Positions 24,060 to 63,717 of a DNA stretch of 64,000 nt are shown in pieces. Both the position numbers and the translations under genes were made by a program. This stretch comes from a virus, in IMG/VR virus record IMGVR_UViG_3300042879_006196, positions 219,393 through 283,392 of that record; one strand, written 5' to 3'. The notes beneath the pieces were generated by a model. That model was given only the letters and a program-made list of their open reading frames with translations, made no database searches and was not told the DNA's origin. How positions within the stretch are numbered: position 1 is the first letter of the stretch; each line of letters starts with the position of its first letter.

Positions 24060-25499
24060 ATGAGAAAAAAAGACTCTAAAACTGAAAATTGTACTATTTG
24101 TGCAGCTCCTGTAGATCCATCCAACGCATTTGTGTTTTATTTTAACAATCAAGAACACTTTTTCTGTGAATCTCATGAAAGACCATTCAAAATGGGCATT
24201 GATATTGGTCAAATAGAAATGAACTCAAAGTTTATATCTTTTATCTCTGATTTACCAGACCCTACCCCTAAAAATGAATTAAAATCTGCATTAAGGCAAT
24301 TCATTCCTATGACAAAAATGCAAGATCCAGAATTCAAGGAAAAAGAAAATTTTATATTATCTACAAAAATTTCTAGCCCCAAACAACTGTTCGATGAAAT
24401 AGGTAAAACAGTAATTGGTCAAGATGAGGCTAGAAAAACTATTTCAGTTTCTGTAATCAACCATTTACAATTGCTAAACCAAGATGTGGAGCAAGTTACA
24501 CAATCTGACAAGCATCATGTTTTAATGCTTGGCAAGTCAGGTTCAGGTAAAACTTTAATTGCAAATACTGTTGCAAATCTTTTCAATTTACCATTTGCCG
24601 TAGGAGATGCTACAAATTACTCCCCTACTGGTTTTCAAGGATCTGATGCAGAGTCTATCATACATGATCTTTTGTTTAAAGCAGATATGAATTTTGATTT
24701 AGCCGAGAGAGGGATTGCATTTATTGATGAAATTGACAAAATTTGTAGTTCAAATAAATCTTCTGGAAGGTATGAATCTTTTATTGGATCAACACAATCC
24801 ACTCTATTGAAACTAGTAGAAGGCAAAACTATTAAAGTACCAAGCACAGTCTTGGGTGATGGACCTGGAGCGCCATATGACTGCAGCTCGGAAAGAGTGT
24901 TGTTCTTCTTAGGTGGCGCCTTTAATGGCTTATCAGAAATTCTTGCCAAAAAGATGGGAATGAAAGAAAGGTCTGTTGGATTTATCAAAACACATGATGA
25001 AAAAAGTAAAGATATTGATGAAGCAATGAAGTCATATGAAATTTTTTCACAAGCTTCGCGTGAGGATATGGTAGAGTCTTTAATTGAATTTGGAATGCTT
25101 TCCGAACTAGTAGGAAGAATTCCATCGATAGTTGCTCTTAAGCCCTTGAGCAAAGAAGATTTAACAAAAGTTTTAGTTGAGTCCACTGTATCTCCGTTAG
25201 AAAAACAAAAGTATATTTTTGAAAAATCTGGTTATAAATTGGAATTCACTGAAGAATTCATCAAAGCAACTGTAGAAAAATCTTACAAATCAGCTGTTGG
25301 CACCAGGGCTCTTGATTCATATGTCAAAAAAGCTGTTAGCGCCGCTAGTTTTGATTTATTGTCTTTGATTAATGTGTCTGGGTCAAAAGGCACAGTACTT
25401 ATCACAGATGAGTGTTTAACAAACCCTGCCGCTTATCAAACTAGTAAAATTCTTGTTGCCAGCAGTCCTGTGTCTTTTCAAAATTCATTAACCATCTAA
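24060..25499 (+). CDS. clpX: ClpX AAA+ unfoldase
   Basis: The 479-residue protein has an N-terminal zinc-binding segment (CTIC, then CESH). The AAA+ core has Walker A LGKSGSGKT (about 157-166), Walker B IAFIDEID (about 219-226), arginine finger/sensor region GRIPS and sensor-2 GTRALDS. The pore loop reads TGFQGSD where E. coli has GYVGED, so an aromatic is kept. The loop that docks ClpP (IGF in bacteria) aligns with SVGFIK, keeping hydrophobic-Gly-Phe. No ClpP is seen in the window, so it could dock host ClpP or act alone as an unfoldase. A weak TATATT lies 17 bases before the ATG. Confidence 0.93.
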   Translation: MRKKDSKTENCTICAAPVDPSNAFVFYFNNQEHFFCESHERPFKMGIDIGQIEMNSKFISFISDLPDPTPKNELKSALRQFIPMTKMQDPEFKEKENFILSTKISSPKQLFDEIGKTVIGQDEARKTISVSVINHLQLLNQDVEQVTQSDKHHVLMLGKSGSGKTLIANTVANLFNLPFAVGDATNYSPTGFQGSDAESIIHDLLFKADMNFDLAERGIAFIDEIDKICSSNKSSGRYESFIGSTQSTLLKLVEGKTIKVPSTVLGDGPGAPYDCSSERVLFFLGGAFNGLSEILAKKMGMKERSVGFIKTHDEKSKDIDEAMKSYEIFSQASREDMVESLIEFGMLSELVGRIPSIVALKPLSKEDLTKVLVESTVSPLEKQKYIFEKSGYKLEFTEEFIKATVEKSYKSAVGTRALDSYVKKAVSAASFDLLSLINVSGSKGTVLITDECLTNPAAYQTSKILVASSPVSFQNSLTI

Positions 25500-40284: not shown

Positions 40285-43200
40285 ATGAGAATTTATAACG
40301 ATTCAATAGAAAATGCAGTGGGGATAAGCTCATCTCAGTATGGGCTTTATGTTGGGTCTGGATATACATTTTTTACACCTCCTGTAAATGGTTTAATTAT
40401 TCAAGGCTCTGTAGGAATTGCAACTTCAAGTCCAACACAAGCACTACACGTTTCTGGGTCTGCAAGAATTACAGGTGCAATTTATGATTCAAATAACGCC
40501 ACAGGTTCTTTGAATCAAGTTTTAACATCTACTGGAGTTGGTATAACTTGGGCTACTGTAAGTTCAACAGGTGGGGTGTCTGGCTCTGGAACAACAAACA
40601 CTGTTGCTAAATTTAATTCTTCAAGCTCTTTATCTAACTCAAACATCACAGATAATGGAATTGCAGTAACAGTAAATTCTCGCATTTTTGTTAATGGTTT
40701 TGGTTCTTTTTTAGGTGATTTGTTCGTTAATCTCATAACTGTTGGGAGAGGTGGTGGATCAAATACGCTTAATACTGTTGTAGGTTTTCAAGCTGGTCTT
40801 GCAAATACGTCTGGTTCTAATAATACTTTTATTGGATATCAAGCTGGATTAGCTAATACTTCAGGATCAAACAACACTGCTCTTGGAGCTTCAGCCTTAT
40901 TCAGTAATAACACAGGTGCGTCTAATGTTGCTATAGGCTACAATGCTTTATATGCTACAACGTATGGTGCAAGAAATGTAACTGTAGGTTTTGAAGCTGG
41001 ATATCAAATTGTTAGTGCAAATGACAACACTTATATGGGTTACAGAGTTGGATATGCCAATACAAATGGTTCAGGAAATTCTGCATTTGGAATTAACGCC
41101 TTAAATTCAGCTACCACTCCTTTCTTCAACACAGCTATAGGTAGGCAGTCACTTTATTCTACTACAACTGGGGGCGACAATACAGCTGTTGGGAATAATG
41201 CTGGTTTTACTAATACAACTGGAACATATAATGTCTACATTGGGGCTGGAGCTGGACAATATCAAACACAATCTTTTCTCACAGCAATTGGTGGAGTGGC
41301 GCTTAGAGGAAATGTTGACACAACTTTAAATACTGGGACTTTAAATGTTGCTGTTGGGTACGCTGCTGGAACTGCAAATACTTCAGGTAGTAGCAACACT
41401 TTTATTGGTCACACTGCAGGGGCAAACAACAGTACAGGAAATACAAATACTTTTGTAGGAAACTATGCTGGTTCAGCTAACACATCGGGTTCAAATAATA
41501 ATTTTTTTGGTGCGAATACTGGAGCTAACAATTCCACAGGCACTGGAAACGTTGCTATGGGAATTTCTGCTTTCAATCAAAACAGGCATGGGATAAATAA
41601 TGTTGCTATTGGCAGACAAGCTTTCTATTATAATGTTTCAGGAAGTAGTAATGTTGCAGTGGGCAACAACGCTTTATTTTACTATGAATCTTCTTCAAGC
41701 AATACGGCTGTTGGAGACGCTGCGCTCTTAGGTAATTCTACCACTTCTTTAAACACTGCCTCAGGCAACGTGGCTTTGGGTGCTTCTGCAGGCATAGCTA
41801 ATTCTTCTGGATCATTTAACGTATATATTGGCAATTCTGCTGGAAGCACAGTAACTACAGGCAATAATAATGTTTTTGTTGGTAATCAGTCAAATGGAAT
41901 TGCGGCTGGCAGTAACCAAATAGCTATTGGTCAAGGCGTAATTATTACAGCATCTAACCAAGGAGCATGGGGTGGAAGCACTAATTCTACTCGAACTAAC
42001 CTTGGTATAGGTACTTTTTCACCTTTAGCGAGATTACACATTGAGACTTTAGCTGCAGCAAATATGGGTTTGTATATTGCTGGTTCTGCATCTCAGACTG
42101 GAGACTTGGTAGAAGTAAATGCCACTGCAAATGGTGCAAATTATTTCACAATAACAGGAATTGGCTCTGTGGGCATTTACACTGCTACCCCGACACAACA
42201 ATTACATGTTTCTGGTAATGTCAGAATAAATGGTGGAATCTTTGATTCTAACAACAACATAGGTTTAGCAAACTCTGTTTTAAGCTCTACAGGCACAGGT
42301 TTAGCTTGGATTGCTCAGTCTGCTGCAGCTGCAGGCAGTGGAACAATTGGCGGCTCAATATCTACGAACCAAATTGCTTTTGGCAACACTTTAAATGTAA
42401 TCACTGGTATTTCAACTTTTGTTTATTCAAATAATCGTGTTGGTATTGGCACTGCTGTTCCTTTGTCTATTCTTCACACACGATCTGGTTTTGCTAATTC
42501 TTCAGCATTGAGGGTAGATGGTATTTCTGGCAATCTTTTTGAAGTCACAGATATTCTAACAGGTAACTTGCAGTCTGTAAACAATATTTCTGGTTTACCT
42601 GTTTTTCAAGTTTTTGATGGTGTAAATAACCCATTGGTTGCAGTAAAAACTCCAGTGGGTCTCGCTTCTGAAGCATTCTCTGTTACATCACCTCTTAATT
42701 TTCCTTATTTCAGTGTGAGCGGTTTAGGAAGCGTGGGTATTGGAACTTCCACCCCTTCAAGAACTATGCATGTTCAAGGAAATATGCGTGTTACAGGCGT
42801 GTTTGCCGATACATTCAATGCTGCTGGTGCATCTAACAATTTATTACAATCTACAGGATCTGGAACTGCTTGGTCTTCCTTTGTTCAACTAGGTTTAGTT
42901 ACAGGTGCAAGTGCTGGTTCTAGAATTGCTTTTTATGCTACTCCAAACTCTTTGATTGGTGTATCTACCTTCGTTTACACAGGTATAGGCTCTGTTGGAA
43001 TAGGAACAGCTAACCCCACGCAACTATTACATGTCACTGGTATTGGTAGATTTGACCAAATTACATTGGGACCAACAGCCACTCCTGTTTCTGGATATCC
43101 ACTTTCTCTATTTGGTAATTTTTATTTAAGAGCAAATGATGTTATTTCATGGTCAGCTGGAAATGCAAGTATTGTATCAGCAAGTGGTGTTTTTGATTTA

Positions 43201-43989
43201 AGATTCAGAACATATAACGGCTCTACTGCTGAGTTTGAGCATATGAGAATTTTGTCTAATGGAAATGTTGGCATCGGAACTACTGGACCTTTAGCAAAAC
43301 TACATGTTCAAAGCTCTAATGTCGCTAATATACCATTAATTCTTTCAGGTTTTGGAATACAAACTGCTGATTATTTGAGAATTGAATCGCAAGTCAATGG
43401 AACAAGATTAATTACAATTGATTCAACAGGAGAATTAGGTATTGGAACATCCACTCCTACTCAAACTCTGCATGTGCAAGCAGGATCTAGGTTTAATGGA
43501 GCAATTTTTGACACTAATAATCTTTCTGGTGGTCCGATTGGTATTGTAAGCCAAGTATTGCAATCAACTGGAACAGGTGTGACGTGGGCTCCAGTAAAAA
43601 GATCATTAATCATACCATTGATGACAGCATTTACACCCACTGCTTCTGGAATTGATGCAGGTGTATTTATTGTACCACAAGATCCTATTAATGGTATTTC
43701 ATCTGTAAACTATAACTTACGAAGGGTTAATGTGCGAGTTGAAACTCCAGCAACAGGAATCACTACAATAAATGTATCTAAATCCACAAGTCCTGGCGTG
43801 TTCTCTGGTGCGAATATTTTATCTTCAGATATTCTTGTTACAGGTGCTTCTAATTATGAATTCGCATCTAGCTCCTTTACTGGATTTGGAGCAACAGCAA
43901 CAAGTAACGATAAATTTGCAGTGAACTTTATAGGGACAGCACCAACATTTGCTAACTTTACAGTGGAATTAATATTGAGAGAAGCATGA
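40285..43989 (+). CDS. Second large tail fibre with YadA-like repeats
   Basis: The 1234-residue fibre has a long tract of YadA-head-like repeats (about 40760-41900; GNVAIG, NTSGSNNTFIG). It shares modules with the 2792-residue fibre: SSLSNSNITDNGIAVTVNSR, the GLYIAGSASQTGDLVEVNAT block and several VGIGTSTPTQTLHV linkers. The C-terminal ~130 residues (from LIIPLMTAFTP) form a non-repetitive beta domain, likely the tip. The shared modules suggest recombination between the two fibres. It overlaps the next gene by 4 bases. Confidence 0.85.
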   Translation: MRIYNDSIENAVGISSSQYGLYVGSGYTFFTPPVNGLIIQGSVGIATSSPTQALHVSGSARITGAIYDSNNATGSLNQVLTSTGVGITWATVSSTGGVSGSGTTNTVAKFNSSSSLSNSNITDNGIAVTVNSRIFVNGFGSFLGDLFVNLITVGRGGGSNTLNTVVGFQAGLANTSGSNNTFIGYQAGLANTSGSNNTALGASALFSNNTGASNVAIGYNALYATTYGARNVTVGFEAGYQIVSANDNTYMGYRVGYANTNGSGNSAFGINALNSATTPFFNTAIGRQSLYSTTTGGDNTAVGNNAGFTNTTGTYNVYIGAGAGQYQTQSFLTAIGGVALRGNVDTTLNTGTLNVAVGYAAGTANTSGSSNTFIGHTAGANNSTGNTNTFVGNYAGSANTSGSNNNFFGANTGANNSTGTGNVAMGISAFNQNRHGINNVAIGRQAFYYNVSGSSNVAVGNNALFYYESSSSNTAVGDAALLGNSTTSLNTASGNVALGASAGIANSSGSFNVYIGNSAGSTVTTGNNNVFVGNQSNGIAAGSNQIAIGQGVIITASNQGAWGGSTNSTRTNLGIGTFSPLARLHIETLAAANMGLYIAGSASQTGDLVEVNATANGANYFTITGIGSVGIYTATPTQQLHVSGNVRINGGIFDSNNNIGLANSVLSSTGTGLAWIAQSAAAAGSGTIGGSISTNQIAFGNTLNVITGISTFVYSNNRVGIGTAVPLSILHTRSGFANSSALRVDGISGNLFEVTDILTGNLQSVNNISGLPVFQVFDGVNNPLVAVKTPVGLASEAFSVTSPLNFPYFSVSGLGSVGIGTSTPSRTMHVQGNMRVTGVFADTFNAAGASNNLLQSTGSGTAWSSFVQLGLVTGASAGSRIAFYATPNSLIGVSTFVYTGIGSVGIGTANPTQLLHVTGIGRFDQITLGPTATPVSGYPLSLFGNFYLRANDVISWSAGNASIVSASGVFDLRFRTYNGSTAEFEHMRILSNGNVGIGTTGPLAKLHVQSSNVANIPLILSGFGIQTADYLRIESQVNGTRLITIDSTGELGIGTSTPTQTLHVQAGSRFNGAIFDTNNLSGGPIGIVSQVLQSTGTGVTWAPVKRSLIIPLMTAFTPTASGIDAGVFIVPQDPINGISSVNYNLRRVNVRVETPATGITTINVSKSTSPGVFSGANILSSDILVTGASNYEFASSSFTGFGATATSNDKFAVNFIGTAPTFANFTVELILREA

Positions 43990-44480
43990 AATTAGAAAAA
44001 CAAAAAAGAAATGATTTTGATATTTGGTTGAATGAAAATGGTGCAATTTATTCAATTATTCCAGTACCTAAAAATCTATGTTATCATTTTTGCTTACCTG
44101 AAACATTTTATCAAACAATCTTACAATTGGGATCATGTGGAAACTCACTGAGATATTTAATTAAACAAAAATACCCCGACACAATTTTAACAGATGTGGA
44201 TGTAGAAGATTACTCAGAATATTCCGATAATTTTATCCAAGACGATGCATATTCATTTATAAAAACCACTGTAATTGAATATGATTATTCAATTGTTGAT
44301 TTAGCTACCACAGATGATGTTTGTGATTTTATTACTGAATTAGATTTTCAATTAAATTTGAAAAGAATCAGCAAGCAAGGAGTGATAAATTGTGGGAGTA
44401 ATTACAAAGATTTTTCTTTATTAAAATGTACAAAAAAAATAAAAGCAGAGGGTAATCACCTTTACTTTTGGGAGAGATAA
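43986..44480 (+). CDS. Possible SAM-dependent methyltransferase-fold protein
   Basis: The 164-residue protein reads like a compact class-I Rossmann methyltransferase. ILQLGSCGNSLRYL fits motif I (hhhxGxxG) and TILTDVDVEDY fits the acidic end of strand 2. DDAYSF and YDYSIVDLATTD fit motifs around strand 4. The pattern resembles spermidine synthase and related enzymes, but the match is weak and the substrate is unknown. It is coupled to the second fibre gene by a 4-base overlap and ends one base before the Hint-containing gene. Confidence 0.4.
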   Translation: MKLEKQKRNDFDIWLNENGAIYSIIPVPKNLCYHFCLPETFYQTILQLGSCGNSLRYLIKQKYPDTILTDVDVEDYSEYSDNFIQDDAYSFIKTTVIEYDYSIVDLATTDDVCDFITELDFQLNLKRISKQGVINCGSNYKDFSLLKCTKKIKAEGNHLYFWER

Positions 44481-45434
44481 ATGGCAACAGCAGGACCTAA
44501 TTATTCTGGAGCGGTGGCAAATGATGCTTCTATTGGCACAGTTGCATGGGTCAACCCTACAAATGCTCAAGGTAATCAAACAACAGTTTATGCTTATGTT
44601 GACCTTCTAAATGCGGGTGTTGTAGAGCTATCGATTAAATTAATTAAAGGTGGTGTTATATCTGGAACAGACAAATCTACTGGCGCAACAATACCTACAA
44701 CTCTCACCACGGTAAATTACGGAAGTGCTTCTGATTTATGGGGTCTGACATTCACTCCCACCGATATTAATTCATCAAATTTTGGCGTGGTATTTGCCTC
44801 ACAGGAACCCTTAGCACCAACAGAATCAAATTATCTTTCTGCAACTAATTTTGGATTTTCTATTCCTGCTGGTTCGACAATAAATGGAATATCATGTTCT
44901 ATAACGCAGTTAGCGGCAAATGCAGCTTCTTTTGCTGAAGGCACACAAATTCAAACACAATCTGGAATTAAAAACATAGAAGAAATAACAAAAGATGATT
45001 TAGTTTTAAGTTTTAATAAAAATACAAAAAAATGCTCTTACAAAAAAGTAAAAGACGTAGTTTGCACAACAGTGCATGAATATTTAATCATCAACGAAAA
45101 AATAATCACAACTTTTAATCACTTATTTTTTACTACAAGAGGCTGGGTTCAGGCGGCAGAACTAAAAAAAGATGATTACTTATGGAAACGAAAAAACAAT
45201 AAGTGGTGCAAAGAAAAAATTAAGAAAATACAAACTGAAAAGCAAACTATTAATGTTTATAATTTTGAAGTAGAAGAAAACAACACTTACTTTGCTAATG
45301 ATTTTGCTGTGCATAATGTGATTCTTGTGAACAGATATGTAAGAGTGTATAATTTTGGAATATCTGTAGACTATACAGCCTCAGGCGGAGGAGGAGTACA
45401 AAGAAGAAGAGTGATAGCTACTTCCCTTGATTAG
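44481..45434 (+). CDS. Structural protein interrupted by a Hint (intein-like) domain
   Basis: This 317-residue protein is a phage tail-type beta domain (GTVAWVNPTNAQ, SDLWGLTFTPTDINSSNFGV, NYLSATNFGFSIPAGSTING) split by a ~130-residue Hint domain (150-279). Block A is SFAEGTQIQT followed by IEEIT..D.V. Block B has Thr211-x-x-His214, and the terminal blocks are VYNFEVEENNTYFA then VHN, with His278-Asn279. The first residue is Ser150 rather than Cys, and the +1 residue is Val280, not Cys/Ser/Thr. No homing endonuclease is present. The +1 Val suggests cleavage or atypical splicing, as in bacterial intein-like domains. A Shine-Dalgarno sequence (GGAGAG, 44471-44476) precedes the ATG. Confidence 0.85.
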   Translation: MATAGPNYSGAVANDASIGTVAWVNPTNAQGNQTTVYAYVDLLNAGVVELSIKLIKGGVISGTDKSTGATIPTTLTTVNYGSASDLWGLTFTPTDINSSNFGVVFASQEPLAPTESNYLSATNFGFSIPAGSTINGISCSITQLAANAASFAEGTQIQTQSGIKNIEEITKDDLVLSFNKNTKKCSYKKVKDVVCTTVHEYLIINEKIITTFNHLFFTTRGWVQAAELKKDDYLWKRKNNKWCKEKIKKIQTEKQTINVYNFEVEENNTYFANDFAVHNVILVNRYVRVYNFGISVDYTASGGGGVQRRRVIATSLD

Positions 45435-46834: not shown

Positions 46835-48457
<1,623 letters not shown>

Positions 48458-49008: not shown

Positions 49009-49570
49009 TCTTTTAAATCCAAAAAACTTCAATCGCACACAATCTGAGCTTGAAGAATTTCTTTTATTATGCATATTTGTTGCAGGCAAAAGTAGTAAAA
49101 CACAATACAAAAAATTAGAATTATTTTTAGACGAACTAGATACTACTAATGGAATTTTTGATGCTTTATCTAAACTTTCTATTGATGAAATCAAGCAAAA
49201 ATTAATTAAAGTAAAAGCTGGGCAATATAGCAGATTGTGTGGTTGTTTGTTTATTTTGTCTAGAAAAAATTTAGATCTTCAAACATGCACATGTGAAGAA
49301 TTAGAATCAATCCCAGGCATAGGAATGAAAACCTCAAGGTTTTTTATCACTTATTCAAGGTTAACAAATAGTTATGCTATTTTAGACACCCACATTCTGG
49401 CTTGGTTAAAAAACATTTACCCAGATGCTCCAAAAGCCACACCTTCAAATAAAAAAGAATATTTGAAGTATGAAAAATTTTTTCTTTCTGAGTGTTTAAA
49501 GAGAAATTTACCTCCGCATGAGTTAGATTTACAAATTTGGAAAGAAAGGCAAAAATCATGGAAAGTTTAG
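48992..49570 (+). CDS. HhH-GPD DNA glycosylase/AP lyase
   Basis: The 192-residue protein has the helix-hairpin-helix ESIPGIGMKTSRFF with Lys113, at the place of the endonuclease III catalytic Lys. LDTHI gives the catalytic Asp132. The Lys implies a bifunctional base-excision enzyme. No Fe-S cysteine cluster is present at the C-terminus. Similarity is best to short OGG-like or Nth-like enzymes; the lesion is unknown. It overlaps both neighbours (17 and 13 bases). It probably repairs phage DNA or acts on modified host DNA. Confidence 0.8.
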   Translation: MKLKTDLLNPKNFNRTQSELEEFLLLCIFVAGKSSKTQYKKLELFLDELDTTNGIFDALSKLSIDEIKQKLIKVKAGQYSRLCGCLFILSRKNLDLQTCTCEELESIPGIGMKTSRFFITYSRLTNSYAILDTHILAWLKNIYPDAPKATPSNKKEYLKYEKFFLSECLKRNLPPHELDLQIWKERQKSWKV

Positions 49571-49908
49571 GACAACATATTTTATTAGACCTTTATGGTT
49601 GCCAGAACACAAATCAGCCTTGGGTTGAATTAAGAGAAATGTTCATGAATGGGTTAACGAAAGGTAATTTCACGGTATTGAATGACCACCATCATCAATT
49701 TGAACCTCATGGCATCAGTGGGGTTTTCATTTTAGCAGAAAGCCATTTAAGTTTTCATATTTGGACTGAGCTTCAGTTTGTGTCTTTGGATATTTACTGG
49801 TGTGGCAATTCATGTGATGAACAAAAACTAGTCAATAGGATTAGTGAATTTTTTGAACCAGAGGCTATAGAATATAAATTTATTGAGCGCGGAATTTTTT
49901 CAGAATAG
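49558..49908 (+). CDS. speH: S-adenosylmethionine decarboxylase proenzyme
   Basis: The 116-residue protein is the short prokaryotic (class 1B, SpeH/SpeD) AdoMet decarboxylase. GISGVFILAESHLSFH places the self-cleavage Glu-Ser at 61-62, where Ser62 becomes the pyruvoyl group. His67 and Cys82 match the catalytic His and Cys. It makes decarboxylated AdoMet for spermidine synthesis. I chose the ATG at 49558, which overlaps the glycosylase end, over an in-frame start at 49537. Phage AdoMetDC may support polyamine supply for DNA packing. Confidence 0.93.
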   Translation: MESLGQHILLDLYGCQNTNQPWVELREMFMNGLTKGNFTVLNDHHHQFEPHGISGVFILAESHLSFHIWTELQFVSLDIYWCGNSCDEQKLVNRISEFFEPEAIEYKFIERGIFSE

Positions 49909-54539: not shown

Positions 54540-54851
54540 ATATTTATCGTTTTTAGATGAAGGTATTTTAACAACACAAGTGACACAATCTTCTAATGCT
54601 TCAAAATCAGTGGATTCACCTTTATTTATTTGAATAATGTCATTTGCTTGATAAATTGTGTCGTTCATTCTAGCTGAACCTGAAACAATTACTGTAATTT
54701 CATCTGATAGCAAATGATAATGCTTATGGTCATAATCACCTTTTGTGTATCTTTTAATGCACACTTCAAAATTTTGTGATTTTTCAATTGAAGGATTGAA
54801 GTCACCAACAAACCAACCACCAACAAAATCTTGCAAATTGTATTTTATCAT
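54528..54851 (-). CDS. Cupin-domain protein
   Basis: The 107-residue single cupin fold has motif 1 DHKHYHLLSDEITVIVSGSA with possible metal His/Glu ligands. Motif 2 (GESTDFEALEDC) lacks the usual His. Its position, overlapping the HAD-nucleotidyltransferase by 4 bases, suggests a sugar-nucleotide isomerase or regulator role. The substrate is unknown. It overlaps the convergent GDPD-like gene end by 12 bases. Confidence 0.7.
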   Translation of the reverse strand: MIKYNLQDFVGGWFVGDFNPSIEKSQNFEVCIKRYTKGDYDHKHYHLLSDEITVIVSGSARMNDTIYQANDIIQINKGESTDFEALEDCVTCVVKIPSSKNDKYLVD

Positions 54852-56212
54852 TTTTTTGTAGACAAGAAATAATTTAAATCTTCAGGAGTACCAATTCCCC
54901 ACATTTCATCAACATTAAAAATTCCAATCTTTTTATCTTCTGCAATTGCTTCATTAAAAACAGGACAAATGTAAAATTCATTGTTTACTCTAATATCTTT
55001 TTCAATCATTTTTTCTGCATACTTAACAAAATCAGATCCTTTTAACCACCAATAAATTCCTACTGTTGCAATATTGCTTATTGGTTTCTTTTCAGCCACT
55101 TCTGTGACAAAACCTTCATTATCTATTTTGACAAAACTCCATTTTGGATGAGTTGCTTCAAAAGTTAAAATTGAGCCATCGAAATTATTATTTATGTTGT
55201 TCTTCATGAACTCAAACGCATCCCATTCAATATATTGGTCAGAATTTGCCATTAGAATAGGATTATCGTTATCAATAAATTCTTTTGCAAGTAACACTGT
55301 ACATGCCGATCCTTCTGTTAAGCCGTCAGTGGTTATTACTTCACATCCAGGAGCAATTTGATTCAAAAATTCTTTTAAAGAGTACTTTGCTATGTGTTCT
55401 TTTCTCACGATAAAGATATATTTAGCTTCAATATTTAGTGTTTCTAAAACTAATTGTATCATTGGCTTCCCTTTTACTTCAATCAAAGGCTTAGGGAAGG
55501 TGTAGCCTGCCACTTCAAATCTTGATCCAGCTCCAGCCATAGGAATTACTACTGTAAGCTTAGAATTTTTATATTTTTGTTTTAATGATTTTATCACCAA
55601 GTTATCTAAATGATCCTTGATTTTTTCAAGCGTCACTTCTTTTGCATTTACCACTCTTAGCACTTCTGCATTTGTTGAAATGGCAGATTCATATCCAACC
55701 TTTGAATCTTCAATTATCAATGTGTTTGATGGATTACAATTGAGATCAATCATTGTTTTCAAATATATTTCAGCAGAAGGCTTAGGGTTATTTACATTTT
55801 CATTTGATAAAATTAAATCAAAATATTCCAAAATCTGCATTTTTTCAAGAATGCTTTCAACGGTGCGGTGAATTGCATTTGAGGCACATGCTATTTTGTA
55901 ACCTTCGTTTTTTAAAAATCTCAAAAGCTCAATCTTAGTTTCATCCACGCATATTTTTTCTCTGATAAAGTCAAATGTATAATCTTGTTTTTTATTCCAG
56001 ATATTTTGTTTTGTCGTAGATTCTAAGTTATCTCTTTCACCAAGAATTTTTAATTTTGTCTTAGTGCTTCTTCCATTGAAGTCCAAATCATGTTCTTTTT
56101 TAGTTATTGAAATATTTGTAAAGTCATAATAAGCTTGTGCAAAAGTTTCAAAATGCATATCAGGCGTATCTACTAAAACACCATCCAAATCAAAAATCAC
56201 AAGTTTTATCAT
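54848..56212 (-). CDS. HAD phosphatase-nucleotidyltransferase fusion
   Basis: The 454-residue fusion has an N-terminal HAD phosphatase (Asp8 and Asp10 in FDLDGVLVDT, then KPSAEIYL and IEDSKVGYESA). The C-terminal sugar-phosphate nucleotidyltransferase (from about 215) has VIPMAGAGSRF and TFPKPLIEVKGKPMI. Such a fusion can both dephosphorylate and activate a sugar. The start at 56212 (MIKLV) overlaps the gmd stop by 4 bases. An in-frame start at 56230 would add six residues. It is part of the sugar operon with gmd and fcl. The sugar is not known. Confidence 0.85.
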   Translation of the reverse strand: MIKLVIFDLDGVLVDTPDMHFETFAQAYYDFTNISITKKEHDLDFNGRSTKTKLKILGERDNLESTTKQNIWNKKQDYTFDFIREKICVDETKIELLRFLKNEGYKIACASNAIHRTVESILEKMQILEYFDLILSNENVNNPKPSAEIYLKTMIDLNCNPSNTLIIEDSKVGYESAISTNAEVLRVVNAKEVTLEKIKDHLDNLVIKSLKQKYKNSKLTVVIPMAGAGSRFEVAGYTFPKPLIEVKGKPMIQLVLETLNIEAKYIFIVRKEHIAKYSLKEFLNQIAPGCEVITTDGLTEGSACTVLLAKEFIDNDNPILMANSDQYIEWDAFEFMKNNINNNFDGSILTFEATHPKWSFVKIDNEGFVTEVAEKKPISNIATVGIYWWLKGSDFVKYAEKMIEKDIRVNNEFYICPVFNEAIAEDKKIGIFNVDEMWGIGTPEDLNYFLSTKK

Positions 56213-57174
56213 ATTGCATTTACTCTCCATTCAATCATTTCATCAATCATGCTTTCAAAACTGTATTCTGGTTGCCATCCTAATTCAGCTCTGATAGGGA
56301 AAGAATCACCTTTTAAGACATTTAATTCTTCTGGTCTTAAAAATCTTTCATCTTGAGTAACATAATCTAAATAATTCATGTCTAGTTTGTTAAAAACATA
56401 TTGTGTTAAATCTTTAACTGTTCTGCTTTCGCCAGTTGCAACAACGTAATCCTTAGGGGATGTATTCTGCATCATTAAATGCATAGCTTTTATATAATCT
56501 TTGGAATGTCCCCAGTCTCTAGCGGCGTCTAAATTACCTAACTTTAATTCTGATTTGATTCCTTTTTTAATTGTCACAGCCCCTTCCACAACTTTTGCTG
56601 TTACAAAATTAGTTGCTCTTTGTGGGCTTTCATGATTGAATAAAACGCCTGAAACTATAAACATATCATAAGAATGTTTGTAATTCATTGCCAGATTGTG
56701 TGCTACTAATTTTGAACAACCATATGGGCTAACTGGGTGCATTGGTGTGGTTATTCTTTGGAATCCATCTTCATCAATTGAATTACCGAACATTTCACTT
56801 GATGAAGCTTGATAAATTTTTATGTCTTTATCTATTACCCTCACTGCTTCTAAAATATTTAAAAAACCTTGAGCATTGACTTGGTTAGTGTATCCAGGCA
56901 TGTCAAAACTAATTCGTACATGCGATTGCGCTGCAAGGTTATAAATTTCATCTGGTCGGATTCTATTTATGAGGTTAAAAATACACATAGGGTCAGTTAA
57001 ATCACCATAATGCAATTTTAATTCTTCAAAATAACTATTCAATCTATAGCTTTGATTTTGTGGCACAGAATGTCTCCTTACAACTCCATGAACATCATAT
57101 CCAAGGTCTAAGAGATGTCGCGCTAAATACGAACCATCTTGTCCAGAAATTCCTGTGATTAAAGCTTTTTTCAT
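56209..57174 (-). CDS. gmd: GDP-mannose 4,6-dehydratase
   Basis: The 321-residue extended SDR has the NADP-binding GISGQDGSYLARHLL at the N-terminus. ASSSEMFG and YGCSK (Tyr-x3-Lys) form the active site. GVVRRHS and HYGDLTD are typical of Gmd. It converts GDP-mannose to GDP-4-keto-6-deoxymannose, the substrate of Fcl next door and a possible substrate of the dehydrase at 60939. It overlaps fcl by 4 bases. Confidence 0.95.
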   Translation of the reverse strand: MKKALITGISGQDGSYLARHLLDLGYDVHGVVRRHSVPQNQSYRLNSYFEELKLHYGDLTDPMCIFNLINRIRPDEIYNLAAQSHVRISFDMPGYTNQVNAQGFLNILEAVRVIDKDIKIYQASSSEMFGNSIDEDGFQRITTPMHPVSPYGCSKLVAHNLAMNYKHSYDMFIVSGVLFNHESPQRATNFVTAKVVEGAVTIKKGIKSELKLGNLDAARDWGHSKDYIKAMHLMMQNTSPKDYVVATGESRTVKDLTQYVFNKLDMNYLDYVTQDERFLRPEELNVLKGDSFPIRAELGWQPEYSFESMIDEMIEWRVNAI

Positions 57175-58073
57175 TTTCTTATTTGTTCATAATTTGTAAC
57201 AAACCATTCAATTGATTCATTTATTGCATCTTCAAATGGTGTAAAAGTCAAATCTGGGATTAATTCTTTTAACCTTGAAATGTCTGTTGGTTTCCTGAAT
57301 TGTCCATCGGGCTTAGATGAATCGTAAACAATGTTACCTTTAAACCCAAAAGCCTTTGCAATTGTATAAGCGCATTCCTCAATAGATATTTCATTTCCGT
57401 TAGAAACAATTACAGAATCATAATCATGATCAATATTAGTTAGTTGTTTTGTGATTCTTGCTAAATCCTTGGAATAAATAAATTCTCTCAAGGGTTTGCC
57501 AGATCCCCAAATGACAAATTCAGTATTATTCTGTTTAGCCAAAAAACATTTGTGAATCATTCCAGGTAAAACATGAGAATTTTGAAGATTATAATAATCA
57601 TTTAATCCAAAAACATTTGTTGGCACAATTGTGAAGTAATTATGTCCTAACTTTTTAGCCTCTATACAAAGATGTTGCATCATTCTTTTAGCATAAGCAT
57701 AAGAATCATTCGTGTAGTGAGGAGGACCCTCAAAAATATACTCTTCCTTTAATGGGTACTCTACTTTGTCTGGAAATACACAAGTAGAAGAAAAATTAAT
57801 AAGTTTTTTTACATTTGTCTTAAGAGCAGCCTCAAAAACAATGTTATTCAAGTTACTATTTAACAAATAAAAGTCAATTTTATTGTTGTAATTACTTACA
57901 ACTCCACCAACTTTAGCAGCTGTGTGTATTATTGTATCAATTTGATTTTCTGTTAAAAAATTTGAATAATCTTCTAAATTATTAATTCTTTTAGTGTAAT
58001 CAATAGTTGAAATTTCTGCTTTGATTGCTGATCCTACCAATCCTTTATGTCCAGTGAGATTTATTTTAGGCAT
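57171..58073 (-). CDS. fcl: GDP-L-fucose synthase
   Basis: The 300-residue SDR has GHKGLVGSAI and the active-site YAYAK. FSSTCVFPD and the later VIWGSGKPLREFIYS are typical of GDP-fucose synthase. It epimerises and reduces the Gmd product to GDP-L-fucose. It is first in the Gmd/HAD-NTase operon and has its own TATAAT just upstream. Confidence 0.94.
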   Translation of the reverse strand: MPKINLTGHKGLVGSAIKAEISTIDYTKRINNLEDYSNFLTENQIDTIIHTAAKVGGVVSNYNNKIDFYLLNSNLNNIVFEAALKTNVKKLINFSSTCVFPDKVEYPLKEEYIFEGPPHYTNDSYAYAKRMMQHLCIEAKKLGHNYFTIVPTNVFGLNDYYNLQNSHVLPGMIHKCFLAKQNNTEFVIWGSGKPLREFIYSKDLARITKQLTNIDHDYDSVIVSNGNEISIEECAYTIAKAFGFKGNIVYDSSKPDGQFRKPTDISRLKELIPDLTFTPFEDAINESIEWFVTNYEQIRK

Positions 58074-58080
58074 ATTAAAA

Positions 58081-58086
58081 ATTATA
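58081..58086 (-). promoter_or_regulatory. -10-like TATAAT before fcl
   Basis: On the minus strand TTGTATAATTTTTAAT precedes the ATG. The predicted leader is about 1 nt. It overlaps the stop of the methyltransferase gene. Confidence 0.55.
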
Positions 58087-58780
58087 CAATTTTTTTAACG
58101 TATGCAGTTGGACAAATGTAGTTTAGAGAAATAATTTCAATATTTTTGTCTTTGAAGAATCTGTCTACCCCTTCAGATTCAGACCATTTAGCGTAGCCAT
58201 ATTCATCAAAAATAACTAAGCCGCCAACTGAAACTCTATCCCATAGTGCGCACAATGTATCATAAGTTGGCTCACCTAGATCTAAATCTAAATATAAAAG
58301 AGAAATTTTAAAACCTGGGTTTTCCTCTACATATTTTAAAGCAGTTTTAGATATGTCTCCTTGAATTAATTCAAATTCATGTGGCAAAAAGCCATTTGAT
58401 AAAATATTTGCCTCTAAATAGTTTTTGTAATTTTGCTCGTGTTTAAAGTTGCGCCCATTGAAAAGCTCGGACATTGCTTCTTTATCTACACTTTTTAAAC
58501 TATTTATTAATTCTTCAGAATTGAACATGTCAAAACCAATAACTTTTTTACTGGTGTTCGGACATAAATATCTTTTTAATTTCAGAAAACTATATATACC
58601 AGATCCTTTGAAAACACCACATTCTACAATATCACCTGGGATATTTTTAACACTTTCGAACAATAAAGTACGTGCTAAAAGTTTACCAAATACTTTGACA
58701 TCATCACTCATTATAAAGCTATTAAATCCATCATAAAGTGATTGTTCTGAAACAATAATTTCTATATTTTCTCTTTTCAT
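58082..58780 (-). CDS. TylF/MycF-like O-methyltransferase
   Basis: The 232-residue protein resembles macrocin-type O-methyltransferases. GDIVECGVFKGSG is the AdoMet-binding motif, LLYLDLDLGEPTYD carries the metal-binding Asp, and VIFDEYG is the next acidic motif. These Mg-dependent enzymes methylate sugar hydroxyls. It probably modifies a deoxysugar of the glycan made by this cassette. It starts one base after the preceding glycosyltransferase-type gene. Confidence 0.85.
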   Translation of the reverse strand: MKRENIEIIVSEQSLYDGFNSFIMSDDVKVFGKLLARTLLFESVKNIPGDIVECGVFKGSGIYSFLKLKRYLCPNTSKKVIGFDMFNSEELINSLKSVDKEAMSELFNGRNFKHEQNYKNYLEANILSNGFLPHEFELIQGDISKTALKYVEENPGFKISLLYLDLDLGEPTYDTLCALWDRVSVGGLVIFDEYGYAKWSESEGVDRFFKDKNIEIISLNYICPTAYVKKIV

Positions 58781-58781
58781 C

Positions 58782-59570
58782 TTATCCTTGATCCCTATCG
58801 GTGTGAAAATACATTAAAGGTTTATTATTTGCAAAACACGATAAATTTCTTGCGCCAAATCTGATCCAATCAATGGAAATGTTTTTAAATATATTTCTTT
58901 CACTTTCTTTCATGTCTTCAGGGTATTCAAGCCTATATTGAATATCGCTTATTTTATACAAATTTTTAGAAATTAACCATGCTTGATAGCTTAATTGGTC
59001 GAACACCTCCCAATCACACTTAAAGAAAAAACCTTCATCATATTTTATGTCTTTAAAATATGATCCCAAATGCTGATCTACAAACCAAGGTATTGTATTC
59101 CAAACAGAATACATTTTTTTGAATTTTTTCAGCTCTTCATTTTCTTTAAAAAACTTTGAACTTTGGTGTTGAATATTTATCAAGAAATCCACATCTGTAG
59201 GATAGCAATATAAAACTTTGTCATTATAGAATCTCATGAATGATTCCTCAAACCCCGTATTTATAAATAAACTTTCAGAATCTACACACGCATATCCATA
59301 GTATTTTTGCATTTTATAAACTTCATGTAACCCATACATTTTTTTATATGTTACAGGGCTTCTGCTTGAATTTACATTTGGGCAAATTATAATTTGATGT
59401 GGGTTTACTATTTCCTGGTAAAAATTTAATTTATTTTGCTCTTCTTCACTTACAACTATATATAAATCAATATCTGGCTTAATCAAATTGTAGCTCTCAC
59501 ATAGTTTTTTTAACCATTCAATTTTTGGAAAATGTATTGGAACAATAATTGCAAGGTTATTTCCATTCAT
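58782..59570 (-). CDS. Probable glycosyltransferase
   Basis: The 262-residue protein has a Rossmann-like N-terminus (LAIIVPIHFPKIEWLKKL, then DLYIVVS) and a central ACVDSES that could serve as a DxD-type metal site. Later Trp/Tyr-rich segments fit GT-A-like enzymes of sugar cassettes. The start at 59570 follows the shared palindrome; a TTG at 59585 would fall inside it. Family is uncertain. Confidence 0.6.
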   Translation of the reverse strand: MNGNNLAIIVPIHFPKIEWLKKLCESYNLIKPDIDLYIVVSEEEQNKLNFYQEIVNPHQIIICPNVNSSRSPVTYKKMYGLHEVYKMQKYYGYACVDSESLFINTGFEESFMRFYNDKVLYCYPTDVDFLINIQHQSSKFFKENEELKKFKKMYSVWNTIPWFVDQHLGSYFKDIKYDEGFFFKCDWEVFDQLSYQAWLISKNLYKISDIQYRLEYPEDMKESERNIFKNISIDWIRFGARNLSCFANNKPLMYFHTDRDQG

Positions 59571-59575
59571 TTCTA

Positions 59576-59587
59576 AATTGTACAATT
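59576..59587. promoter_or_regulatory. Palindromic bidirectional promoter
   Basis: Perfect 12-bp palindrome AATTGTACAATT. Exactly 5 bases separate it from the ATG on each side (59593 plus, 59570 minus). TACAAT in each direction predicts a start on the A of each ATG. Confidence 0.6.
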
Positions 59588-59592
59588 AATGA

Positions 59593-60279
59593 ATGGAATT
59601 TACTTTTGGGATTTGTGCCTCTCGCTCAAATAAAGACTTACATCAAACTTTAGCCAGAAGCATTCATCTTTTAAATATACCTAATTATGAAATACTTTTT
59701 ATCGGTGACATAGAAGATGTAGACAGTAAATCAAAAGTAATTTATTTTGATGAAACACAAAAAGAAGGATGGATTACAAAGAAAAAAAATATACTATGCC
59801 AAAATGCAAATTTTGAAAATATTGTGCTTTTACACGATTATATAGAATTTGAAGCAAATTGGTATAAAGGTTTTTTAAATTTTGGCAATGATTTTGATAT
59901 TGCAATGAATGTAATTTTGAATAGTAACAATACTAGATTCAGAGATTGGTGTCTGAATCCATTTGATATTATACCTCCTAAAGGACCTGTTGTAACAAGA
60001 GAATTCTTTTTACCATACAATATCACGCATTTAACAAATTTGATGTATATATCTGGAACTTACTGGGTTGCTAAGACTAAATTTATGTTGGATAATCCTT
60101 TGGATGAAAATTTGATATGGGGACAAAGTGAAGATTTAAAATGGTCTGAGCAGGTAAGATCAAAAACACAATTTAAAATGAACACTAATTCAATAGTCAG
60201 ATGTATGAAGTTAAAATATTGTGATTTTACTGAAATATCTCCTGAAAATCTTATGAAGATAGAAGCTCTTTCATCTTAG
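59593..60279 (+). CDS. Glycosyltransferase (GT2-like)
   Basis: The 228-residue protein has a GT-A fold pattern: FTFGICASRSN, YEILFIGD, a KKKNIL segment and LLHDYIEF (where GT2 enzymes have DxD). YISGTYWVAK and LIWGQSEDLKWSEQ follow, the latter a probable catalytic ED motif. It probably transfers a sugar onto the phage-directed glycan. Its end overlaps the convergent RmlD-like gene by 29 bases. Confidence 0.78.
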   Translation: MEFTFGICASRSNKDLHQTLARSIHLLNIPNYEILFIGDIEDVDSKSKVIYFDETQKEGWITKKKNILCQNANFENIVLLHDYIEFEANWYKGFLNFGNDFDIAMNVILNSNNTRFRDWCLNPFDIIPPKGPVVTREFFLPYNITHLTNLMYISGTYWVAKTKFMLDNPLDENLIWGQSEDLKWSEQVRSKTQFKMNTNSIVRCMKLKYCDFTEISPENLMKIEALSS

Positions 60280-60949
60280 TTAAATCCATAGATGTGTCTT
60301 TTGGCACGTTATTAGGCGAACACACTTTCTTAACATTTTTATTTGATTGCACAGCTAATTCATAAATTGATTTTTTTTCAGTTCCTATATTAAATAAACC
60401 TTGAGCATTTTTTTCTATCATTTTTATTATTATATCTGCAATTACATTAGTATAATCAAAATTGCCAATTCTGTCCACAAAAGCTTCATTATAGGGAAAA
60501 GGGAAATTTTTGTGTGTGCATCTTAGTATTAAATAATTATCACAAACTAATTCAATTACACAATCTGCAAGAAGTTTTGTCACGGAATACCAATTTTCAC
60601 TAGGAATTGGAGGCTGTAATTCCGACGGCTCAACTATTGAATTGTTCGCATAAACAAAATCGCTACTTATATGAACTAATTTTATATTATTATCTTTGCA
60701 AAACAAACACAAATCATACACTGCTTTATAATTTACGTTCCAATGTTCTTCCTTCGATTCAGAGTAAGTGTTGGTATTAGCAATACAATTAACAATTGTA
60801 TCATAGTTCAACATAGTTTTTTTAAAATTTTCAAAATTACAAATATCAAATTTATGATCTTTTCTAGACAAGTAGTTCCAATTTGTTTGTTTAGTTATTT
60901 CAGTGCCTAATAAACCTTGACCCAAAACTAATATTTTTTTACTGTGCAT
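60251..60949 (-). CDS. RmlD-like NAD(P)-dependent sugar reductase
   Basis: The 232-residue SDR has GQGLLGTEI at the N-terminus, HISSDFVYA and YSVTK (Tyr-x3-Lys). This is the layout of dTDP-4-dehydrorhamnose reductases, but it is shorter than the usual ~290. It probably reduces a 4-keto deoxysugar made by the dehydrase upstream. It overlaps that gene by 11 bases. Confidence 0.82.
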   Translation of the reverse strand: MHSKKILVLGQGLLGTEITKQTNWNYLSRKDHKFDICNFENFKKTMLNYDTIVNCIANTNTYSESKEEHWNVNYKAVYDLCLFCKDNNIKLVHISSDFVYANNSIVEPSELQPPIPSENWYSVTKLLADCVIELVCDNYLILRCTHKNFPFPYNEAFVDRIGNFDYTNVIADIIIKMIEKNAQGLFNIGTEKKSIYELAVQSNKNVKKVCSPNNVPKDTSMDLTKMKELLSS

Positions 60950-62234
60950 TTGAAAAACCTTTAACTACTTTTTCTATGTAATTGAAAACAGAATCACTAT
61001 AATGCGGCGCAGCTCCAACAAAAAAAACTTTATCTAACACTTGATTCGCTTCTGGATATTTATTGAAATCATCTAGGAAACTATATCCAGGATGTAACAG
61101 AATATTTCCAGCAAAATAATTTCTTGTTTGTATTTTGTTTTTTTCTAAATAAGAAACAAGTGATTGTTTAATATCAAAGTTTTCACAAATAAATGGAGTG
61201 CCAAACCAACAAGGGTCAGATTTTTCTAAAGTTTTTACCCCTCTTATTCCTTTAATATTATCAATAAAAATCTTTTCAATTGTTTGTTTTGATTTTTTTC
61301 TTCTTAAATCAATTTCATCAAATTTCTTTAATTGCTCTAAACCTATTGCGCCTTGTAAATCTAATGGTTTCAAATTATATCCCATGTTTGCAAAAACGTA
61401 TTTGTGATCAATTATCCCATGATAATTAGGTAACCAATTATCAAATCTTCTCTGACATGTACCACAAGCAGATAAATTTGCAGAACCAACACAATAACAA
61501 TCTCGACCCCACCATGATAAACTTACAAACAGAGATTTTAATTCGTTGTCGTTGCTACAAACCATGCCACCTTCACCAGTAGATATGTGATGCGCAGGGT
61601 AGAAAGAGTTTGAAAAAGCAGAGTAGTAATCTGATATATTTTTTCCATCATATTTGCTACCCAAACTGTCACAATTGTCTCCAATTAAAATGAGATTGTG
61701 TTTGTTTGCTATTTCCTGTAATTTATCCATATCAGGCGGATTACCAAGAACAGGTGAAACAAAAATACCTTTTGTTCTAGACGTAATTTTGTTTTCAATT
61801 TGTGAAATATCAAAGTTGAGTGTGTCCCACTCAATATCCACAAAAACTGGTTTAAGTCTATTTTGATATATCACTGAAATTGTAGTGGCAAATCCCACTG
61901 GCGACACAATGATTTCATCTTCATCACGCCAATCGTATCTTTTCTTTAAAGCTGCAATCAATACTAAATTAGCTGAACTACCAGAATTGACCATATGTGA
62001 ATGCTTCACTCCAAATTTTTTACTGAATTCATATTCAAATTTGTGTACTTTTTCACCAGCAGTAATCCATTTACCATTCAAAAAAGAATTTATTGCTGCT
62101 TCAATTTCTTTGTTGTCCCAATATGGTCCAGAGTAATAAATAGATGTTTTTCCTTCTTCAAAAACATCTGAATTGTATATATATGGTGCAACGTGATTGC
62201 CCACCAAATTTTGTATGTTTTGTAATTCAACCAC
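60939..62234 (-). CDS. RfbH/E1-type deoxysugar 3-dehydrase (PLP, Fe-S)
   Basis: This 431-residue member of the DegT/StrS fold has His in place of the PLP-binding Lys (SFYPAHHISTGEGG). That marks 3-dehydrases (E1/RfbH, ColD) rather than aminotransferases. The cysteines are spaced C-x57-C-x-C-x8-C: DNCDSLG, WGRDCYC, then SACGTC. This is close to the C-x57-C-x-C-x7-C that binds [2Fe-2S] in E1. It likely removes O-3 of a 4-keto-6-deoxysugar nucleotide, giving a 3,6-dideoxysugar. The GTG at 62234 follows the promoter palindrome; a TTG at 62267 is less likely. Confidence 0.88.
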   Translation of the reverse strand: MVELQNIQNLVGNHVAPYIYNSDVFEEGKTSIYYSGPYWDNKEIEAAINSFLNGKWITAGEKVHKFEYEFSKKFGVKHSHMVNSGSSANLVLIAALKKRYDWRDEDEIIVSPVGFATTISVIYQNRLKPVFVDIEWDTLNFDISQIENKITSRTKGIFVSPVLGNPPDMDKLQEIANKHNLILIGDNCDSLGSKYDGKNISDYYSAFSNSFYPAHHISTGEGGMVCSNDNELKSLFVSLSWWGRDCYCVGSANLSACGTCQRRFDNWLPNYHGIIDHKYVFANMGYNLKPLDLQGAIGLEQLKKFDEIDLRRKKSKQTIEKIFIDNIKGIRGVKTLEKSDPCWFGTPFICENFDIKQSLVSYLEKNKIQTRNYFAGNILLHPGYSFLDDFNKYPEANQVLDKVFFVGAAPHYSDSVFNYIEKVVKGFSNAQ

Positions 62235-62239
62235 TTTAT

Positions 62240-62251
62240 AATTGTACAATT
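62240..62251. promoter_or_regulatory. Palindromic bidirectional promoter
   Basis: Perfect palindrome AATTGTACAATT with 5 bases to the ATG at 62257 (plus) and 5 bases to the GTG at 62234 (minus). It is the same geometry as at 59576. Confidence 0.6.
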
Positions 62252-62256
62252 TGATT

Positions 62257-62922
62257 ATGCAAGACAAGTTTAATATTTATTTTCATATTGCAGTGGCACA
62301 AAATTGGAAGCAAAGTTTTGACAGAGTGAACGGTCATTTAGTTGATTCTGGAATACTTGAAGACTGTAATGCTATTGTGTATTCAATTAATGGCAATATT
62401 AAAGAAGTGGCAGATTATGTAAAGGGTAAAATTGCAAATAACGTTTTGTTTTATGCAAAAAACACCTATCATGAAGAATTTGAATTTCCAACTATAAACC
62501 TTTTAAAATCAGATTGTGAACATGATAATATAAAAGCTCTATACGTTATGTCAAAAAGTGCAACCACTCCATTTACACAACAACAAAAAGATCATATTGA
62601 TGTAATGTCGTATTTTAACATTACACAATATAAAAAATGTTTAGAGCTTTTAAATAGTTATGATGCAGTGGGGGTAGATTATCATGACCATCCATATAAA
62701 CACTTTAGTGGGAACTTTTTTTGGACAAAATCCTCACATGCTAAAAAACTACAATATTTGTATTGGGAGCCTTGGCGTGAAAATGCTCCTTTGGGAGAAG
62801 AAAGACACGCCGCTGAAGCATGGGTTTGCAAACCAGATGGAAAATATTATTCTTTACACAATACTGGTATTCCAGTATTTGAAAGACATATTCATGAATA
62901 TCCATCATCCAAATATAGATAA
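62257..62922 (+). CDS. Probable glycosyltransferase-like protein
   Basis: The 221-residue protein begins FNIYFHIAVAQNWKQSF and has GVDYHDHPYKHFSGNFFWTK, a pattern known in sugar-cassette proteins where GNFFW(T/A)KS follows a DxxH motif. LGEERHAAEAWV could provide the catalytic acids. I chose the ATG at 62257 after the palindrome over an in-frame TTG at 62242. Its end overlaps the convergent fucosyltransferase gene by 18 bases. Confidence 0.65.
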   Translation: MQDKFNIYFHIAVAQNWKQSFDRVNGHLVDSGILEDCNAIVYSINGNIKEVADYVKGKIANNVLFYAKNTYHEEFEFPTINLLKSDCEHDNIKALYVMSKSATTPFTQQQKDHIDVMSYFNITQYKKCLELLNSYDAVGVDYHDHPYKHFSGNFFWTKSSHAKKLQYLYWEPWRENAPLGEERHAAEAWVCKPDGKYYSLHNTGIPVFERHIHEYPSSKYR

Positions 62923-63717
62923 TATTCTTGTTTCAGGAAGCCAATACTCTTTGCTTATTTCAAAGTTTTCTTTAATTGCATTTTGATCAATTTCAAACTT
63001 TTCATAATTATCAAGCACGTGCACTAATTCATCATAGTCATCCACTTCTATGATTCCTTTGGTGTTGAAATAATTTGAGATATTTTTGCATCCCCAATAA
63101 ATTGGAATTGTTCCTGTCGCAAAACAATCTACTATCTTTTCTGTGAAATATGAATTGTTGCTAACATTTTCAATACAAACATGGAATTGAAAATCTTTCA
63201 TAGCATCAAGCTTGTAATCTAAAGGTCTAAATTGCGGTCCAAAATTAGTAATGGCTTTGTGAGTTGAAATTCTATGTCTAAGCACTTGCCCTGCCGTGAA
63301 TACCTTTGTAGATGTAACCATAGAAACAGAGTTTTTATTCTTTTCATAAACATTACAATCTTGCTCTCTAACCCAACATCCACCAACTGGGAAGTTGATT
63401 ACATTAGGTAAATGTAATAGTCTGTCATCGTGTGTTAAAATTGTTTTAAAATCGGTGTAGTTTTGAAGTAAATCTTCAACTATGCTATCACCAACCATAA
63501 AAGGGCTTTCTAGCACCCATAAAATTTTATTCGGTGCAGAAATATTTTTGGACATTTCATAACATGATTCCGTGAAAAAGATTGGTCTTTCGTCAATGAT
63601 TATTTCTTTTCTTTTCCAATCAAATGGAATAGAAATATCATTGTAAGGACTCCCTGCTGAAATAGCATGAGAAAATTGAGTGTCAAATATTTGAAAAGAA
63701 TTTTTTACTGATGTCAT
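62905..63717 (-). CDS. GT10-like fucosyltransferase
   Basis: The 270-residue protein carries the signature VCIENVSNNSYFTEKIVDC, then FATGTIPIYWGC. This matches the FTEKI motif and donor-binding region of GT10 alpha-1,3/1,4-fucosyltransferases. With Gmd and Fcl in the same cassette, GDP-L-fucose is the probable donor. It overlaps the upstream partial gene by 35 bases. The acceptor is unknown. Confidence 0.8.
   Translation of the reverse strand: MTSVKNSFQIFDTQFSHAISAGSPYNDISIPFDWKRKEIIIDERPIFFTESCYEMSKNISAPNKILWVLESPFMVGDSIVEDLLQNYTDFKTILTHDDRLLHLPNVINFPVGGCWVREQDCNVYEKNKNSVSMVTSTKVFTAGQVLRHRISTHKAITNFGPQFRPLDYKLDAMKDFQFHVCIENVSNNSYFTEKIVDCFATGTIPIYWGCKNISNYFNTKGIIEVDDYDELVHVLDNYEKFEIDQNAIKENFEISKEYWLPETRILSIFG

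Follow-up and report, generated by a model that had tools for sequence, protein, structure and literature searches.

A BIL-like Hint domain in a hairpin of a virion-type beta-sandwich protein from a giant bacteriophage, a candidate self-processing device

The window analysed here, a 64,000-nucleotide stretch of viral DNA, encodes a 317-residue protein in which residues 150–279 form a complete Hint domain, the match being far beyond chance. The gene belongs to a giant bacteriophage (347-kb record), and homology and neighbouring genes suggest that its product is a virion or tail structural protein. I lean towards the view that the domain is a mini-domain resembling A-type bacterial intein-like (BIL) domains, through which a virion-type protein would process itself by asparagine cyclisation.

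An initial annotation had proposed an intein-like Hint domain at this place, to be checked by an HMM search. This search matched residues 150–279 to the Pfam PT-HINT model with an E-value of 2.2e-15 (57.6 bits, cut-off 27.7) and to the Intein_splicing profile with an E-value of 2.2e-9, while intein_Cterm TIGR01443 scored above its own cut-off. The best sequence match in the PDB is 2LWY, a BIL domain of C. thermocellum (phmmer, E 8e-13). AlphaFold, run on the full-length protein (mean pLDDT 89, pTM 0.72), predicts a complete Hint domain with high confidence, and Foldseek lists BIL domains first (6Y75/6TMM, 2LWY), then inteins and Hedgehog. Both the fold and blocks A, B, F and G are those of the Hint superfamily. 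The key residues are as previously read: Ser150 comes first, block B is T211-x-x-H214, the domain ends in H278-N279 and Val280 follows at +1; the F-block His position is occupied by Asn268. The first full-length model had a poor host domain because its alignment lacked the last strand, a fault that was fixed by adding two homologues described below, L190 and L213, to the alignment used for the good model.

Table 1. Features of the Hint-containing gene and of the genes upstream (window coordinates).
Feature	Coordinates	Strand	Basis or remark
Gene for a 317-aa phage beta-sandwich protein with inserted Hint	44481..45434	+	same architecture in L190 and L213
Host segment A, residues 1–44, GPNYSGAV..AWVNPTNAQ	44481..44612	+	alignment with Hint-free homologues, including L010, L012 and L316
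Host segment C, residues 45–108, KLIKGG..SDLWGLTFTPTDINSSNFGV	44613..44804	+	
Host segment B, residues 111–149, NYLSATNFGFSIPAGSTINGI.., ending in strand 133–146 right before the Hint	44811..44927	+	
Hint (BIL-like) domain, residues 150–279	44928..45317	+	profile, sequence and fold matches
Hint residue 1, Ser150 (TCT)	44928..44930	+	Cys in nearly all relatives, Ser in L190 too
Block B, T211-F-N-H214	45111..45122	+	
Block G, His278-Asn279, end of the Hint	45312..45317	+	
Residue +1, Val280 (GTG), not a nucleophile	45318..45320	+	Leu in L190, Phe in L213
Host segment D, residues 280–317 and stop, with the long sandwich strand 285–299	45318..45434	+	
164-aa gene upstream	43986..44480	+	stop codon abuts the start codon (ATG) of the Hint gene
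1234-aa fibre/spike-like virion structural gene, upstream	40285..43989	+	phrog_6002, E 1e-53; phrog_4636 tail spike, E 5e-27

The reading frame of the gene is uninterrupted by frameshift or stop (ORF inspection), and nucleotides 44928–45317 encode exactly residues 150–279. The parts of the protein that flank the Hint make up one beta-sandwich domain, which is common in phages and is also found N-terminally in two podovirus proteins that carry the annotation tail tubular protein A. Used as queries, two different segments of this domain fetched 65 and 80 viral loci, in partly overlapping sets. Most members have their segments in the order A-B-C-D, while the window protein has the order A-C-B-[Hint]-D. 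A rearrangement tied to the Hint is ruled out: the A-C-B-D order is natural, since it is found without a Hint in L010, L012, L053, L057, L071, L159, L167, L179 and L316, as well as in all three proteins that carry one.

Removing residues 150–279 raised the score against a profile of five Hint-free A-C-B-D members from 126.6 to 135.6 bits and brought the last strand into the match. Alignment and model locate the Hint in the hairpin that joins the last two long strands of the sandwich, a site that is empty in Hint-free relatives; the loop has 16–19 residues in these relatives, versus 21–23 in the three carriers once joined (alignment count). The insertion site is a variable loop, as is known for BIL domains, which occupy variable regions of non-conserved proteins (PMC7765530). 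The flanks had been taken for consecutive strands, and this reading is correct, since the model places strands 133–146 and 285–299 on either side of the Hint. The further suggestion that the domain might attach the virion protein to a partner found nothing in its favour; the two flanks run side by side within a single domain, a geometry that argues for excision or in-place nicking instead.

Two other viral proteins have a Hint in the same loop: L190 (IMGVR_UViG_3300036766_000088), of 315 residues, with 41% identity to the window protein across 290 aligned positions, and L213 (IMGVR_UViG_3300008255_000462), the gene of which runs off the contig end, with 36% identity over 309. No Hint was found in any other fetched host-domain locus. 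A head-decoration-like gene lies upstream of L190; upstream of L213, at a distance of a few genes, one matches a major head protein (E 3.7e-44), and neighbouring genes suggest that a structural module surrounds all three carriers. No close relatives were found in viral contigs when the whole window protein, the Hint alone, a downstream structural gene and the phage GroEL were searched for; within the 347-kb record, two family searches revealed no second Hint, and no paralogue of the host domain was found. An artefact of assembly or annotation might be feared from one metagenome-derived contig that lacks a close relative. It is highly improbable, however: L190 and L213, which share the architecture at 36–41% identity over about 300 residues, refute it in practice, and the continuous open frame and the occurrence of the A-C-B-D order in Hint-free homologues also speak against it.

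A survey of 72 different viral Hints found Cys or Ser at +1 in 48 of the 48 that have a long insert (these Hints span 160–490 residues in the sample) and in 3 of the 24 mini-Hints. On the tree of viral Hints, the window Hint falls in a mini-Hint group (support 97/92) whose members all lack a +1 nucleophile; with 2LWY as best PDB match, this bears out the initial annotation of a BIL-like domain without such a residue. Class 1 inteins have Cys, Ser or Thr at +1, where the three carriers have Val, Leu and Phe; class 3 inteins have a Cys at F:4 in place of the residue 1 nucleophile, where the window Hint has Asn261; and mobile inteins contain a homing endonuclease insert, of which this 130-residue domain is devoid. 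With A-type BILs it shares sequence and tree kinship, the C-terminal His-Asn, a non-nucleophilic +1 residue and a variable host site. What it lacks is the thioester-forming Cys1, which the survey found in 80 of 82 bacterial Hints and in 71 of 72 viral ones and which is replaced here by Ser150, and because of this Ser it is classed as BIL-like rather than as a typical A-type BIL.

In A-type BILs, residue 1 forms a thioester, the C-terminal cut is made by Asn cyclisation and ligation can follow when the amine thus released attacks the thioester; splicing is possible without a +1 nucleophile, but cleavage dominates (PMC4031507). A disguised intein might nevertheless splice cleanly and leave a Hint-free mature sandwich, the Hint being a selfish passenger that moves from phage to phage through homologous recombination in the flanking domain. 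Such a passenger would fit the finding that the joined flanks rebuild the host domain, the holding together of its ends by neighbouring strands, which favours ligation, and the use of one site in unrelated host lineages. It would also fit the G+C content, which in the window (0.27 vs 0.40) and in L213 (0.23 vs 0.37) is lower in the Hint than in the N-terminal part of the host domain, the difference being smaller in L190 (0.39 vs 0.43). I nevertheless regard clean splicing as unlikely, given that none of the three carriers has Cys, Ser or Thr at +1, that there is no homing endonuclease, that the site is a non-conserved loop and that the BILs studied yield mostly cleavage.

The three carrier Hints are only 24–36% identical to one another in pairwise comparison, and T211, H214, H278 and N279 are invariant among them. 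Residues 1 and +1 are Ser and Val in the window, Ser and Leu in L190, and Cys and Phe in L213. The Hint tree pairs the window with L190 (95/76), inside a 98/91 group that includes the viral mini-Hints L074, L075, L077 and L078, a pairing that joins two long branches. Ser1 is encoded by TCT in the window and by TCA in L190; this sharing of Ser1 by way of another codon, together with the pairing on the tree, means that Ser1 is no private defect of the window contig. The L213 Hint is placed away from the pair, although a single clade of the three is still not rejected (AU p 0.35). By contrast, such a clade is rejected on the host tree (AU p 0.014), where L190 groups with the Hint-free L179 (99/96) and L213 with the Hint-free L159 (95/94). 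Since the carriers are scattered on the host tree, either Hints entered the loop on more than one occasion or there were several losses, the detail of Hint history being unsure because of the long branches; repeated loss of a dispensable insert would fit the rejection as well.

Hints are present in 0 of 63 members of the usual A-B-C-D order (pattern count) and in 3 of about 13 of the A-C-B-D kind, a contrast that was spotted post hoc among loci that are not independent. The second denominator derives from 12 A-C-B-D members in the pattern count, from which L048 was set aside as what I read as a tandem-domain artefact and to which L316 and the window, both outside the count, were added. This sporadic occurrence would suit an inert or relic Hint, kept by the loop as an additional surface domain or as a decaying insert and reacting at no useful rate. 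So would Ser instead of Cys at residue 1, Asn where the F block has its His, the lack of a +1 nucleophile and the long branch in the Hint trees. On the other hand, three divergent copies have each retained Thr, His, His and Asn, which argues against pure decay, Ser1 is found again in L190, and the open frame encodes a confidently predicted, complete fold. On balance, an inert domain seems rather unlikely. Because two unrelated phages have a Hint in the same loop, the window Hint is probably a working maturation device.

If the domain is active as an A-type BIL-like device, the precursor would fold first, and Asn279, helped by His278, would cyclise, thereby cutting the chain before Val280. Ser150, helped by T211 and H214, would undergo an N-to-O acyl shift to give an ester, which would then be hydrolysed or attacked by the freed amine of Val280. 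The two termini of the Hint are fixed at the tip of a single hairpin, so the new N-terminus at Val280 would stay near Ser150 after the cyclisation of Asn279. This would yield a Hint-free sandwich that either has a nick in the hairpin, with the sheet keeping its parts together, or has been resealed through nucleophile-free ligation. That the reaction occurs, its order, its outcome in cleavage or ligation and the presence of the protein in the virion are inferences. An oxygen ester, as formed by Ser1, is a poorer target for amine attack than the thioester of the studied BILs, and a bulky +1 residue (Val, Leu or Phe) is expected to slow Asn cyclisation; together they argue for a slow reaction and for cleavage rather than ligation. 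This oxo-ester chemistry and the bulky +1 residue, along with Asn268 at the F-block His position and the small number of known carriers (three), count against self-processing.

Mini-Hints were also seen in other phage tail proteins. Homologues of lambda gpI at L105:1229-2554 and L083:3620-4954 (phrog_32, E 3e-24 and 3e-25, respectively), and also in L085, L086, L087 and L091, contain a BIL-like mini-Hint followed by Gly at +1 (residues 126–255 in L105). It lies in the Gly-rich linker that leads from a ubiquitin-like domain to the C-terminal domain, a linker in which cleavage by the gpK JAB peptidase has been predicted (Iyer et al. 2006, PMC1779556). The gene that follows the gpI homologue, read as gpJ-like by its GEGPIEG motif, carries another Hint. 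Mini-Hints followed by Arg or Gly at +1 occur in gpJ-like tail tip proteins encoded at L105:2558-5992, by the second ORF of L083, at L081:2377-5616 and in L082, those of L081 and L082 having two Hints in tandem in Gly-rich surroundings. Viral proteins of 720–770 residues in L074, L075, L142 and L145 apparently contain three Hint modules in a row. No account of a Hint or BIL domain in phage structural proteins, gpI and gpJ included, was found in the open-access literature searched, outside which most subscription journals lie.

A small, single-domain, well-predicted host, a Hint confined to one hairpin, Hint-free relatives and three copies at the same site together make it possible to test cleanly if BIL-type domains serve in protein maturation. 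If the domain is active, phages would have at their disposal a protease-free way of processing virion parts, and protein chemists would gain a natural ligase with Ser1 and no +1 nucleophile. As a tentative generalisation, which I hold with some doubt, phages may repeatedly use BIL-type Hints as protease-free maturation scissors or ligases, lodged in virion and tail-assembly proteins at loops and linkers (in the gpI linker, gpJ and collagen-like proteins as well as in the sandwich hairpin), Ser1 and a hydrophobic +1 residue supporting an oxo-ester, nucleophile-free route in the sandwich family.

Elsewhere in the window, a chaperone set is recognisable by sequence, with GroEL-, DnaJ-, DnaK- and ClpX-like genes at 46838-48457, 8450-9406, 11670-13295 and 24060-25499, respectively; the GroEL of the 347-kb phage record shows no more than about 46% identity to its counterparts in known phages. 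The product of 49537-49908 resembles, by its ESHLSFH motif, S-adenosylmethionine decarboxylase (SpeD), a self-processing enzyme, and 54848-63717 reads as a putative nucleotide-sugar/glycan cluster, with epimerase/dehydratase-, aminotransferase- and glycosyltransferase-like genes.

Among known systems, the canonical class 1 phage inteins (TerL, RNR; phiCbK, PMC3556154) share the Hint fold and blocks A, B, F and G, but as described they occupy conserved enzyme sites, whereas the window Hint lies in a non-conserved loop. The polymorphic-toxin PT-HINT is the best Pfam model; the window Hint is not beside a toxin module, its host being a phage structural domain. The top fold match is BIL2 of the Tetrahymena BUBL locus (6Y75, 6TMM; E 9e-12, TM 0.80), which has a eukaryotic locus as its host instead of a phage structural gene. 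A Hint that also ends in His-Asn is found in gp108 of the cultured jumbo phage Dickeya phage AD1, annotated as a virion structural, collagen-like protein; unlike the window Hint it is C-terminal and has Cys1 and Thr at +1, and the kinship is distant. In gp108 (L343:5053-6492), collagen-like repeats are followed by the Hint near the C-terminus and a 10-residue tail. Compared with 2LWY, an A-type BIL, the window Hint has Ser1 in place of Cys1, is borne by a phage and sits in a beta-hairpin of a virion-type sandwich. The two nevertheless have in common a length of about 130 residues without endonuclease, the His-Asn end, TxxH in block B, VYNF in block F, a non-nucleophilic +1 residue and a variable insertion site, and they superpose with a TM-score of 0.85.
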